Assembly: GCA_002702705.1 (NCBI GenBank)
Contig: PABH01000008.1
Location: 1-64,000 of the forward strand
Direction: 5' to 3'
Source of the DNA: Anaerolineaceae bacterium
GTDB lineage: Bacteria > Chloroflexota > Anaerolineae > Anaerolineales > Anaerolineaceae
DNA length: 64,000 nucleotides
The notes beneath the pieces are model-generated. The model saw only the letters and a list, made by a program, of their open reading frames with translations, did not search any database and was not told the origin of the DNA. The translations under genes and the position numbers were made by a program. Shown one piece after another: positions 16,625-53,443 of this stretch; within the stretch, counting starts at the first letter, position 1, and each line of letters begins with the position of its first letter.

Positions 16625-17113
16625 ATGTACGAAAAAAGTATTGAATTGTTGAATCAAACCATTGGAGATGAGCTGACCGCGGTTCATCAATATATGTATT
16701 TTCATTTTCACTGCGAAGATCAAGGATATGAACTCCTATCCAGCCTATTTAAACGAATAGCACTGGTGGAAATGCAGCATGTAGAACGCTGCGCTGAACG
16801 AATTTTATTCCTGAAGGGTGATGTGGAAATGGCACTTTCCCGTCCAGTGAAAAAAATTCATGATGTGAAAGAAATGCTGGAAGAATCACGAAAAATTGAA
16901 CAAGACAGCATCATAAAATACAATAAATTTGCAAACGAATGTTCGGCTCACACTGATTCCGGATCAAAAAATGTATTTGAGAGCTTGGTCAGTGAAGAAG
17001 AACTGCATTACGATGATTACGATTTAGAAATGGATAAGATCAATAAGTTTGGAGAACACTACCTGGCATTACAATCCATCGAAAGTAGTAAGGGCGAACC
17101 AGTACAAGCATAA
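16625..17113 (+). CDS. bfr: bacterioferritin
   Basis: A 24-mer iron-storage ferritin of the heme-binding class. The ferroxidase ligands are all found with the E. coli spacing: Glu16, Glu49, His52, Glu92, Glu125 and His128. The heme ligand Met50 is also present (VEMQH). Length is 162 aa, and AGGAAGGG precedes the ATG. It is divergent from yvcK across about 190 bases that hold no other gene. No bacterioferritin-associated ferredoxin is next to it. Downstream lies a block of structured repeats. Confidence 0.95.
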   Translation: MYEKSIELLNQTIGDELTAVHQYMYFHFHCEDQGYELLSSLFKRIALVEMQHVERCAERILFLKGDVEMALSRPVKKIHDVKEMLEESRKIEQDSIIKYNKFANECSAHTDSGSKNVFESLVSEEELHYDDYDLEMDKINKFGEHYLALQSIESSKGEPVQA

Positions 17114-17143: not shown

Positions 17144-17199
17144 AAAATCCAGGTTTTGGGTGAAGAGATTTTCTTTGTCCAAAATCGGTTTTTGGTCTT
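17144..17199 (+). repeat. short degenerate copy of the CCGAGAT repeat
   Basis: It begins AAAATCCAGGTTTTGGGTGAA, cut here to the family start, and ends AAAATCGGTTTTTGGTCTT. These match the two ends of the 134-bp repeats that follow, but the middle is missing. Confidence 0.45.
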
Positions 17200-17215
17200 A
17201 AATTTTTAAGCAGAG

Positions 17216-17349
17216 CTCGAGAGCGAGACGGTACCAAAACCGAGATTTTGGGTGAAACGACACGAGTTAATCGAATACTGCTTGATCTTATGATTGCTGC
17301 TTAAGCAAAGTATCATCTCGGTTTTTGCTCTTTTTCCAAAAAACAGATC
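17216..17349 (+). repeat. 134-bp structured repeat, copy 1
   Basis: It starts CTCGAGAGCGAGACGG and contains the arms AAAACCGAGAT (17236-17246) and ATCTCGGTTTT (17315-17325). An inner imperfect hairpin pairs AATACTGCTT with AAGCAAAGTAT. After the outer stem comes TTGCTCTTTTT, so a transcript would fold into a long hairpin ending in a U-rich tail. There is no ORF. An almost equal copy follows at 17425, and the outer ends recur at 35343. It could be a structured RNA, a terminator element or a MITE. Confidence 0.7.
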
Positions 17350-17424
17350 TCGAGATGATACTGCTCAAGAATCTTAAAAGTTCACCAGCCTATCATACAA
17401 ATAATGCTCGCTTTTCCCCAGAAT

Positions 17425-17558
17425 CTCGAGAGCGAGACGGTACCAAAACCGAGATTATGAGTGAAACGACACGAGTTAAACAAATACTGCTTGATCTTAT
17501 ACCCGCTAATTAAGCAAAGTATCATCTCGATTTTTGCTCTTTTTCCAAAAAAAAGATC
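17425..17558 (+). repeat. 134-bp structured repeat, copy 2
   Basis: Same length and order as copy 1, differing at roughly a dozen positions. The outer right arm carries one change (ATCTCGATTTT), which breaks one pair. The inner block AAACGACACGAGTTAA and the TACTGCTTGATCTTAT loop are conserved, so both copies preserve more than the stem. It ends 73 bases before the glucokinase start. Confidence 0.7.
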
Positions 17559-17614
17559 ACGAGACTAAGGGGTTATCTATAACCCAAATTTATGACAAAA
17601 TAAACCCCTCTGTA

Positions 17615-35342: not shown

Positions 35343-35440
35343 AAAACCGAGATTTTTGGGTATAAGAGTGTATGATTGACAAATTTAGGATGAAATTTAC
35401 AAGATGTGTTTGTAAATGTTCATCTCGGTTTTTGCTCTTC
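35343..35440 (+). repeat. dispersed copy of the CCGAGAT structured repeat
   Basis: Arms AAAACCGAGAT (35343-35353) and ATCTCGGTTTT (35422-35432) match those of the 17.2-kb repeats exactly, as do the flanks TTTTTGGGT and TTGCTCTT. The interior is unrelated and forms its own hairpin, ATTTACAA with TTGTAAAT. Conserved ends with a replaceable middle point to a mobile or structured element. The rest of 35141-35492 contains no gene. Confidence 0.65.
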
Positions 35441-51295: not shown

Positions 51296-51967
51296 TCAAT
51301 CAATCACTACTTTTTTCTTCAACCATTTTGCACGTAAACCCACTACGCGTTCCGTACCTTCTTTTAGTCGTTTCAAATTAGGCCGCAAAGCCCATACCAA
51401 AGCCGCCAATGCAAGTGCCCCATACATTACATATGCCCATGGGGATAAACCCAAAGCCGCTCGGATAATAAAAACGATCATTGCAATCAATGCGACACTC
51501 ATCGTGGTCACGGATGCATATCCGATAAACAAATAAATTAGTACCGCTACAGGTAAAATAATTAACCAGATCGGGCTCCATAAGGCAATTGCCCCACCCA
51601 GACAGGTTGCCCCCCCGGCTCCGCCTCGCATTTGTAATTTTCCATTTTTGCGGTGAACCAAAAAAATGGGATAATTATGTCCAATCACGGCTAAGAAAGC
51701 AGCAAAAACCTGTACCCAAATTTGTCCGGGCACCAGCCAATTCACAACCCAAGCTGTGGCAATCCCTTTAACAACATCTAATGTAGCCGTTAAAGCTCCA
51801 GCGCCTAATCCGGCAGCCCGCATGGCATTCGTACCACCTGTCCTGCCTGATTCAATTTCACGCACATCCCTTCCGTTAAAAATCTTTACAATTAAAAACC
51901 CAAAAGGGATCGAACCTAATAAATAAGCAAGCAACAAGGCCAAAAATTTTAAGCCAATCGTGTCCAT
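51296..51967 (-). CDS. plsY: acyl-phosphate:glycerol-3-phosphate acyltransferase
   Basis: PlsY makes lysophosphatidic acid from acyl-phosphate in the membrane, the first step of phospholipid synthesis. The three motifs are present: LLGSIPFGFL, SGRTGGTNAMRAAG and GHNYPIFLVHRKNG with GGAGGATCLGG. About five helices; 223 aa is normal. It is last in a minus-strand operon after the JAMM peptidase. Confidence 0.95.
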   Translation of the reverse strand: MDTIGLKFLALLLAYLLGSIPFGFLIVKIFNGRDVREIESGRTGGTNAMRAAGLGAGALTATLDVVKGIATAWVVNWLVPGQIWVQVFAAFLAVIGHNYPIFLVHRKNGKLQMRGGAGGATCLGGAIALWSPIWLIILPVAVLIYLFIGYASVTTMSVALIAMIVFIIRAALGLSPWAYVMYGALALAALVWALRPNLKRLKEGTERVVGLRAKWLKKKVVID

Positions 51968-52019
51968 TTTTCTAATCCATTCCTTTAATTCTTTTTAGCA
52001 GCTTAATTAACCCGAATCA

Positions 52020-52433
52020 TTAATCATCGTTACGATTAATTATTAATTGAATTTTTTCATAACTTTCAGATTGTAAATCAAAAGCGTTTACAGCCCAATC
52101 TGAATGAGAAGGCGATAGTATAACCGTTACCGTGCCAGGGTACAAGAATTCTTTGATATCGGTTTCCGAAGGTGCCGCCGGACCATTCGGATGAGAATGA
52201 AAAATTCCGATCAAATCCCAAACAGAGTCGTCAATCCACGTCAGAGCATGTAATAATTCAACCGGGTCCATATAAAAACGAGTCGGAGAATGAGCAGCAT
52301 TGGTTACTGGAATTACTTTTTGTACCACACCATCCTTACCGGCCAACAATCCACAAGCTTCTTCCGGTAAATGTTGTTGGACATGCTGGATCATCTCTTG
52401 GCAAAGTTTTGATGGAATATGAAAAGTATCCAT
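52020..52433 (-). CDS. M67/JAMM metallopeptidase
   Basis: 137 aa. The MPN+ motif is complete: Glu25 in LPEEACGLL, then H79-S-H81-P, Ser89 and Asp92 in HSHPNGPAAPSETD. Bacterial stand-alone JAMM proteins remove C-terminal extensions from sulfur-carrier or ubiquitin-like proteins, for example during cysteine or cofactor synthesis. No ThiS/MoaD-like carrier is adjacent, so the partner is unknown. It begins 2 bases after the membrane protein gene, so co-translation is likely. Confidence 0.92.
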   Translation of the reverse strand: MDTFHIPSKLCQEMIQHVQQHLPEEACGLLAGKDGVVQKVIPVTNAAHSPTRFYMDPVELLHALTWIDDSVWDLIGIFHSHPNGPAAPSETDIKEFLYPGTVTVILSPSHSDWAVNAFDLQSESYEKIQLIINRNDD

Positions 52434-52435
52434 GT

Positions 52436-53251
52436 TTATCCCCTAATCATCCAAGCTAACAGCCAAATCATAGACAACATAAAAATAGGTTCAAACCAAA
52501 GTGAGCCTGCTTCACGGCCCTCTTCCAGCCCGCTCGCAAATGTAGTTAATCCATACGCCGTACCGACTAACAAAAGACCAAAAGTTAACGGTTGAATTGG
52601 CAAGTAGTGAAAACCAACAGCCAACTGCCCCACAACCAGGGCAATACCCAAAGCCCAAACCCAATTCCATCGCCCACCTGATCGAAGATATAACGTACGC
52701 AAGACCAACAAAAATAATGCTGGTACAAGGGCCGGCAATAACAAAAATAAACGCACATTAGCCGCTTTTAGAGCAATCGCCAGAACCAGGTATAAGGCAA
52801 AGGATACAGCAGTTAAACCCAAACTTGCGGGAAGATAAGCGACCCCACTTAAATCAATAACGATATACTCTGCCACCAAAACCAACACTAACAACACACC
52901 ACCCAATGCTAAAACCACCCACCATGCTGGTTGAACTTCAAGCGTATTTAACGGTACACCAATCACCCAGGCTGTTAAGGCAGGAACAAAACCATGCCGT
53001 AGGAGAGAATTTTTATCATGATCCGGATGACCTTGCAAAAGCCAATCAGCCCCCAAACCAGCTAAAATAGCAGCCAGTAAAGATATCAAAGTACCGTAAT
53101 TTAAATTGAAATCAAACTGCACCCAAATTAGCGACAAACGAATTGGCTGGGCAGGTACTTTAACAAAAGGAATTAAGGCATATGCCAATAAAATAACAGC
53201 TGAAATGACACTTAATCGATTGGCATCCGGTAAATGTTGACGATCTTCCAT
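52436..53251 (-). CDS. polytopic membrane protein, unknown family
   Basis: 271 aa from ATG 53251, with about 8-9 hydrophobic helices. The first loop contains VPAQPIRLSLIWVQF and ADWLLQGHPDH. Upstream in-frame sequence is rich in Lys and Phe with no signal and is not used. I recognise no family. It is first in an operon with the JAMM peptidase and plsY, which hints at an envelope role. It is divergent from the membrane protein at 53444. Confidence 0.7.
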   Translation of the reverse strand: MEDRQHLPDANRLSVISAVILLAYALIPFVKVPAQPIRLSLIWVQFDFNLNYGTLISLLAAILAGLGADWLLQGHPDHDKNSLLRHGFVPALTAWVIGVPLNTLEVQPAWWVVLALGGVLLVLVLVAEYIVIDLSGVAYLPASLGLTAVSFALYLVLAIALKAANVRLFLLLPALVPALFLLVLRTLYLRSGGRWNWVWALGIALVVGQLAVGFHYLPIQPLTFGLLLVGTAYGLTTFASGLEEGREAGSLWFEPIFMLSMIWLLAWMIRG

Positions 53252-53443
53252 ATCTCCATTGTAACGAACCTTATCCAATCCTACCAGAAAAAATATCATT
53301 TTTTTAAATCCACACAAGGTTTTTAGCGTTTTTAAAAACTTTCTGCGGGGATTTTTATTCGTTTTCCAGTGATTCAATTTAAAGCAGGTAAAGACAAGGA
53401 AAAACGCCTTTAAACCGCTAAATGTGGTAAAATTAAGCCCTGT

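Follow-up and report, generated by a model that had tools for sequence, protein, structure and literature searches.

REPINs, doublets of REP sequences that form hairpins, have been described in P. fluorescens SBW25, where they are clustered beside RAYT genes (PMC3116915). The hosts of GTAG repeats include Chloroflexi, and the same 2013 survey noted, in the passages cited here, a preference for heterodimers without an obvious explanation (PMC3733652). For subclass 2.1 of the tyrosine transposases (TnpA_Y1), no REPs were found in the corresponding passages of the 2018 survey, automatic and manual searches having given no REP-like partner DNA, and a link between the TIRYT proteins and this subclass was drawn (PMC6006769). 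The general kind of element reported below is known; its long heterotypic form, which lacks the GTAG foot, and the type of transposase that goes with it are poorly described. In the literature covered, which took in little of the subscription literature, we found no published description of these units or of the cyanobacterial doublets that are compared with them.

The DNA analysed (the window) comprises bases 1-64000 of contig C10, in a genome of 5,885,093 bases and 74 contigs. A sequence-only reading had proposed two tandem 134-bp copies of a repeat between bfr and the glucokinase gene, with a degenerate third copy and a dispersed fourth. The two long direct copies are real (17216-17355 and 17425-17564; 140 nt, 91% identity, spacing 209), but the core unit, AAAACCGAGATTTTTG ... 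ATCTCGGTTTTTGCTCTT, measures about 97 nt rather than 134 (17236-17332 and 17445-17541), and the copies are not simply tandem, being separated by an inverted unit of a second type, C, that the earlier reading had overlooked. The first B-type unit (17236-17332, plus strand; 81.2 bits, E 1.6e-13) has the arms AAAACCGAGAT / ATCTCGGTTTT and the tail TTGCTCTT; the C-type unit (17339-17433, minus strand; E 1.8e-7), whose own, different arms are GACCTCGAGAT-like, lies tail-to-tail with it and head-to-head with the second B-type unit (17445-17541, plus strand; E 6.4e-11), which is a local duplicate of the first with a middle 85% identical. The degenerate copy also exists, as a shorter stretch from 17143 that contains a B-type unit of 56 nt with an internal deletion (17144-17199, plus strand; a weak covariance model match, E 0.27). 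The dispersed copy is an isolated B-type unit flanked by convergent genes (35343-35439, plus strand; E 1.4e-12) and has nothing but its ends in common with the other copies, at 95% identity over 20 nt and 93% over 27 nt. Complementary arms are present as proposed, but the inner hairpin is not shared, the middle differing between copies. The copy at 17445 has one mismatch in the arms and a minimum-energy single-strand fold that differs from the arm hairpin, and the fold predicted for the copy at 35343 does not use the arms in full. In the genome as a whole, the 3' end (up to three mismatches) occurs at 38 sites against 9 for a reversed control and the 5' end at 32 against 1, counts so far above the control that the repeats are not due to chance.

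The bacterioferritin-like gene (16625-17113 of the window), which is the sole match of its kind in this genome at E<=1e-3, lies between a CofD-like gene and the ROK kinase gene. In all seven congeners the CofD-like gene and the kinase adjoin and bfr was not found in the approximately 3.9 kb examined around the kinase gene, so that insertion of the repeats by themselves cannot be separated out at the bfr-glk site; the kinase beside the repeats is, moreover, only 60-68% identical in the seven congeners, which leaves no empty-site comparison. The bacterioferritin-like gene may have arrived together with the repeat-rich stretch.

The repeats of the window are a few among about ninety copies, across the genome, of a hairpin element of about 97 bases. 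The further copies on which the sequence-only reading had staked its proposal were recovered by a genome-wide covariance model search, which gave 95 rows at E<=1, two of them the same unit on opposite strands, and 85 at E<=1e-3. The model was built on 41 units (23 B and 18 C) that are themselves counted within the 85, and the copy count is a lower bound, since scoring covered only 150 of the 5008 candidates from the first look. Left out of the 41-unit alignment were three B readings of the other type or the wrong strand (C16:135025, C26:78440 and C25:28875), the longer version of C26:78433, a 116-nt unit at C50:6096, an 83-nt unit at C16:87662, the opposite-strand readings C51:250757 and C58:25709, and C matches that overlapped a B unit or exceeded 110 nt. 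In 46 fetched stretches (274,634 bases) 91 units were found at E<=1e-3, with overlaps of at most 20 nt between them; their length is centred on 97 nt, with 85 of the 91 at 93-101 nt, and all but four could be typed by their arms as B (AAAACCGAGAT) or C (GACCTCGAGAT). When the model was run on 61 genomes under tighter filtering, at the cost of weak matches, the seven congeners gave no match at E<=0.01, and beyond the genome itself weak matches appeared in G041, G043 and G011 alone (best 1e-3). The exact pattern of the B and C units gave no match in a wider collection of genome contigs, from which this genome is possibly absent.

The arms of the units covary, as the sequence-only reading had expected. 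In the 41-unit set 97.3% of the arm cells are paired against 83.0% after shuffling, and in the 91 units 93.6% against 78.2%, with 192 double changes against 77.7 in the shuffled sets; choosing the 41 units by arm patterns and fitting the 91-unit alignment to the arm structure biases both sets towards pairing, and slid and shuffled alignments served as controls. At the arm pair 8-149, 59 of the 91 units have A-U and the other 32 have G-C, without a break; the pair 10-147 is broken in 35 of the 91. Mean pairwise identity is 0.72 in the arms and 0.36 in the middle (0.27 in the shuffled middle). Similar middles were found in 28 pairs of units, of which 25 lie inside one fetched stretch, two involve the contig-end units of C53 and C35, and one joins units 16 kb apart on C26; as the middles of dispersed copies are almost unrelated, recent jumps are hardly visible. 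Units or unit ends also lie within the first approximately 400 bases of contigs C35, C53, C63, C30 and C37, and the C35 and C53 end units agree in their middles at 93-100% identity; the assembly was therefore probably interrupted at these places by the repeats.

Neighbouring units follow a strict order. Among 34 pairs of close neighbours (<60 nt), 33 are inverted (19 tail-to-tail and 14 head-to-head) and one is tandem, and in all 30 neighbour pairs with both types known a B unit stands with a C unit. The head-to-head gap is 11-13 nt in 10 of the 14 cases. A head-to-head partner arm occurs within 80 nt upstream of 43 of the 91 units (shuffled rate 4%), 28 of them at 13-15 nt, and a tail partner arm downstream of 35 (shuffled 0.3%); CCC precedes 37 of the 91. 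The 26 isolated units comprise 18 C, 7 B and one untyped unit, some of which retain remnants of a partner in their flanks. Judged by eye only, the single arms are imperfect palindromes. In the 12 nt that precede the 5' arm, a GT[AG]G foot was found in 6 of the 91 units, and its complement after the tail in 3, and the motif GGGGWSAS in 2 of the 91 when the 80-nt flanks, but not the unit interiors, were scanned.

The genome holds six Y1_Tnp matches. One of them, on the minus strand at C37:52480-53004, is an intact 175-aa frame for an HUH/tyrosine transposase of the REP-associated (RAYT/TnpA_REP) type, and it lies between arrays of units: six (51841-52448) on one side at a distance of 28 bp, the stop codon being counted as gene, and three (53053-53357) on the other at 48 bp. 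By a rough calculation that assumes about 5300 gaps and 52 clusters, flanking on both sides would arise by chance at 1e-4 per gene, or 6e-4 for six genes. The protein scores 31.3 bits against PF01797 (cut-off 23) and 76.2 bits (E 2.2e-21) against NF047646, the REP-associated tyrosine transposase family, which is just below the curated cut-off of 80. It keeps its HUH and tyrosine motifs, and the motifs NHYH, FQ, YIHLNP and SS are present; no C-terminal HTH extension is seen (a Pfam scan at E<=1e-3 gives PF01797 alone), and a sequence search of the PDB with it returned no match. In its place the fold of a congener protein 42% identical to it (L209) was predicted (pLDDT 96.8), and the best PDB match of this model is 4ER8 (E 6.1e-10, TM 0.74), a REP-associated tyrosine transposase on a REP hairpin, with the IS200/IS608 enzymes behind. 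A second homologue in the genome, C40:35543-36058, is 51% identical to the C37 transposase; upstream of it lie two inverted pairs, each of 91-93 nt, one of which is a weak covariance model match (96 nt, E 0.058). A third, the frame C37:25384-25941 (in L140), is a canonical, full-scoring RAYT (NF047646, 174.8 bits), and no B or C units were found near it. Within this genome the association of units and transposase consists of one full locus and one weak locus.

Homologues of the C37 transposase were found at E<=1e-3 in 29 of the 61 genomes, its own included. At the best 80 of at least 569 named relative loci, the sequence up to 800 bp from the homologue (122.9 kb in all) contains 81 inverted pairs of 60-135 nt, and that at 1.9-2.7 kb (110.9 kb) contains 10. 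These counts include local duplicates, so the comparison by locus is safer: at least one inverted pair is present at 32 of the 80 loci near the homologue and at 9 of the 80 farther off (Fisher p 5e-5), which leaves 48 of the 80 without a pair nearby. In a separate look at 15 homologue loci, made without a control, clear pairs were seen at L141, L153, L155, L156, L158, L160, L162 and L166, while L157, L159 and L163 were ambiguous and L154, L161, L164 and L165 had none that was convincing. The L166 locus, in G019, has five similar 127-nt hairpin doublets with CCTCCCTCCGGGATGG arms around a distant homologue.

The cyanobacterial homologues, 42-48% identical to the C37 transposase among the matches listed, sit among AGAAACCGGGTTTCT doublets of about 65 nt with a variable middle and arms that are near-perfect palindromes. 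Six cyanobacterial genomes with a homologue contain 151, 7, 0, 158, 145 and 79 such doublets, with none for the reversed control, and the 151 belong to Dulcicalothrix desertica PCC 7102, a culturable host; the pattern is self-complementary, so that both strands report the same sites. Beyond these six, G041 has three, and this genome and G001 have none. The genomes of L194, L196, L182 and L240 hold 79-158 AAACCSGGTTT doublets with a transposase of 42-47% similarity amid them. Microcystis NIES-4325 has a homologue and nearby pairs, yet no exact-pattern doublets, and Goleter has 7. The literature found on the core letters AAACCSGGTTT concerns GalR of E. coli. Among the congeners, doublets of the form GTGCATTGCAC...GTGCATTGCAC (about 80 nt, variable middle) make up a separate hairpin family, with 29 rows in G001, 18 in G006, 6 in G007 and 3 in G004, none for the control, and none in G002, G003, G005 or this genome; some of these rows overlap one another or report a single site from both strands. 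In G001 and G007 the doublets lie beside the genome's own transposase homologue (L209 and L262-L267 are among the loci of G001, G006, G007 and G004); in G006, despite its 18 rows, no homologue was found. Enzyme and repeat types thus seem to change together between genomes. In the tree the C37 transposase falls outside a supported clade (98/95) that holds the congener proteins of G001, G005 and G007, and its placement among the proteins of G041, G045 and the cyanobacteria lacks resolution; the system may have entered this genome from outside the genus.

As far as the cited passages describe the known systems, the units share with REPINs the inverted conserved ends, the spacer of constant length and variable sequence, the whole-unit hairpin, the compensatory changes, the extragenic location and the clusters adjoining a RAYT gene (PMC3116915). 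They differ in their length of about 97 nt, their two alternating end types, the missing GT[AG]G foot and their arms, each imperfectly palindromic by eye; because the foot is missing, we class them as a variant and not as canonical REPs. The E. coli BIMEs, with their Y and Z REPs, and the REPtrons likewise show two related subfamilies in inverted alternation and a flanked transposase gene, but each alternating unit here is a doublet-like hairpin of about 97 nt, whereas a BIME REP has 20-40 nt (PMC6006769). With the TIRYTs and TIRtrons the units have in common a Y1 gene between inverted repeats of a kind that is also dispersed as a family, with dimers and clusters (PMC3733652). The C37 motifs match the row of subclass 2.1 (NH[YF]H, FQ, Y[IV]HLNP, SS) in the table of the 2018 survey (PMC6006769), and on motifs alone the enzyme would fit this subclass. 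Against both groups stands the rarity of GGGGWSAS in the flanks scanned; the protein is also shorter, at 175 aa against a median of 238, with no HTH family found in it, and the approximately 90 units contrast with the moderately abundant families of the 2013 paper (PMC3733652). In the cyanobacterial doublets, AAACCGGGTTT resembles by eye the arms AAAACCGAGAT / GAAGCCGGGAT, which are imperfect palindromes by the same judgement, unlike the near-perfect ones there.

In all likelihood the units are REPIN/BIME-type non-autonomous mobile elements, in a variant form, moved by a RAYT, and the small transposase whose gene lies between copies very probably spread them; the like arrangement in relatives and the predicted fold of the congener protein lend this further support. 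We infer that the C37 enzyme acts on the B and C units and that they move by a single-strand route. A unit would consist of complementary ends and a drifting spacer of maintained length, with B and C ends alternating in inverted order; the RAYT/TnpA_REP would most likely recognise the folded ends in single-stranded DNA, cut and re-join them and so scatter units into intergenic DNA, where local tandem duplication would afterwards multiply neighbouring units. An integron attC site was also considered and set aside, given the alternating orientation and ends that do not seem to fit the attC core motifs.

The sequence-only reading had left two alternatives, a MITE-like element or a family of structured RNAs ending in an intrinsic terminator. 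The former was right in kind, the units being dispersed, multi-copy, non-coding and linked to a transposase; the latter, in which the units would be kept for transcript structure, has little in its favour and is very improbable. A crude ORF finder called both neighbours for 45 of the 52 clusters (the other 7, at edges, are omitted). Of these 45, 41 lie outside ORF calls and 4 inside, and the flanking genes are co-directional at 20, convergent at 15 and divergent at 10. The 15 convergent sites would suit terminators, as would the T-rich tail after the 3' arm, but single units flanked by co-directional genes favour neither strand (8 with the gene direction, 7 against), B and C units have opposite orientations, the middle is variable, and Rfam gave no match in the window at gathering scores. 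Arm covariation agrees with a structured RNA, but selection on a DNA hairpin accounts for it equally well. A terminator scan gave 2 terminator-like hits against 1.4 expected, one in the degenerate copy and one inside the kinase gene, and is uninformative on long-loop hairpins, being confined to loops of 3-8 nt.

A classical MITE, whose terminal inverted repeats are acted on by a DDE transposase, would explain the size, the inverted ends and the intergenic dispersal, but the transposase among the units is a single-strand Y1/HUH enzyme (DDE families were not part of the genome-wide search), and we give this form of the MITE-like proposal hardly any credence. Target-site duplications, which had been suggested as a check, are not seen at a fixed place beside the 26 isolated units. 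The two flanks of a unit share longer words than permuted flanks do (mean of the longest 5.0 against 4.25 nt, reached in none of 500 permutations), which would suit a DDE element, but such words lie at scattered distances, off the unit borders (CACAAT beside 35343 is an example), and may stem from shared local composition or partner remnants. It is unlikely, if less remote, that the units are degenerate repeats now multiplied by host processes alone, such as template switching and tandem duplication, with the transposase a relic or domesticated. The concentration of similar middles within single fetched stretches is in its favour, and host-mediated local amplification has been suggested by the REPIN authors (PMC8049555, in the part cited); the intact transposase frame with its HUH and tyrosine motifs, and the arms of dispersed copies, which are still complementary, argue against it.

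Within the RAYT-moved reading, the mobile entity itself may possibly be larger, although we regard this as doubtful: a heterotypic pair B-> <-C of about 200 nt whose left and right ends, B and C, differ, served by a TnpA of the subclass 2.1 type that would recognise long hairpins without a GTAG guide, in a second, hitherto overlooked REPIN system common to Chloroflexota and Cyanobacteria. The strict B/C alternation suggests the pair as the entity; the 26 isolated units count against it, though some of them retain partner remnants. If the subclass 2.1 group proved to be tightly linked to the abundant hairpin families of Chloroflexota and Cyanobacteria, it would gain a substrate, and a system shared by the two phyla would, if true, correct the statement on this subclass, in the survey passages cited, that it has no REPs (PMC6006769). 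The way in which such enzymes choose their DNA could usefully be studied by contrast with a RAYT that needs no GTAG guide, and the strict alternation of B and C bears on the heterodimer preference that the cited part of the 2013 survey left unexplained (PMC3733652).
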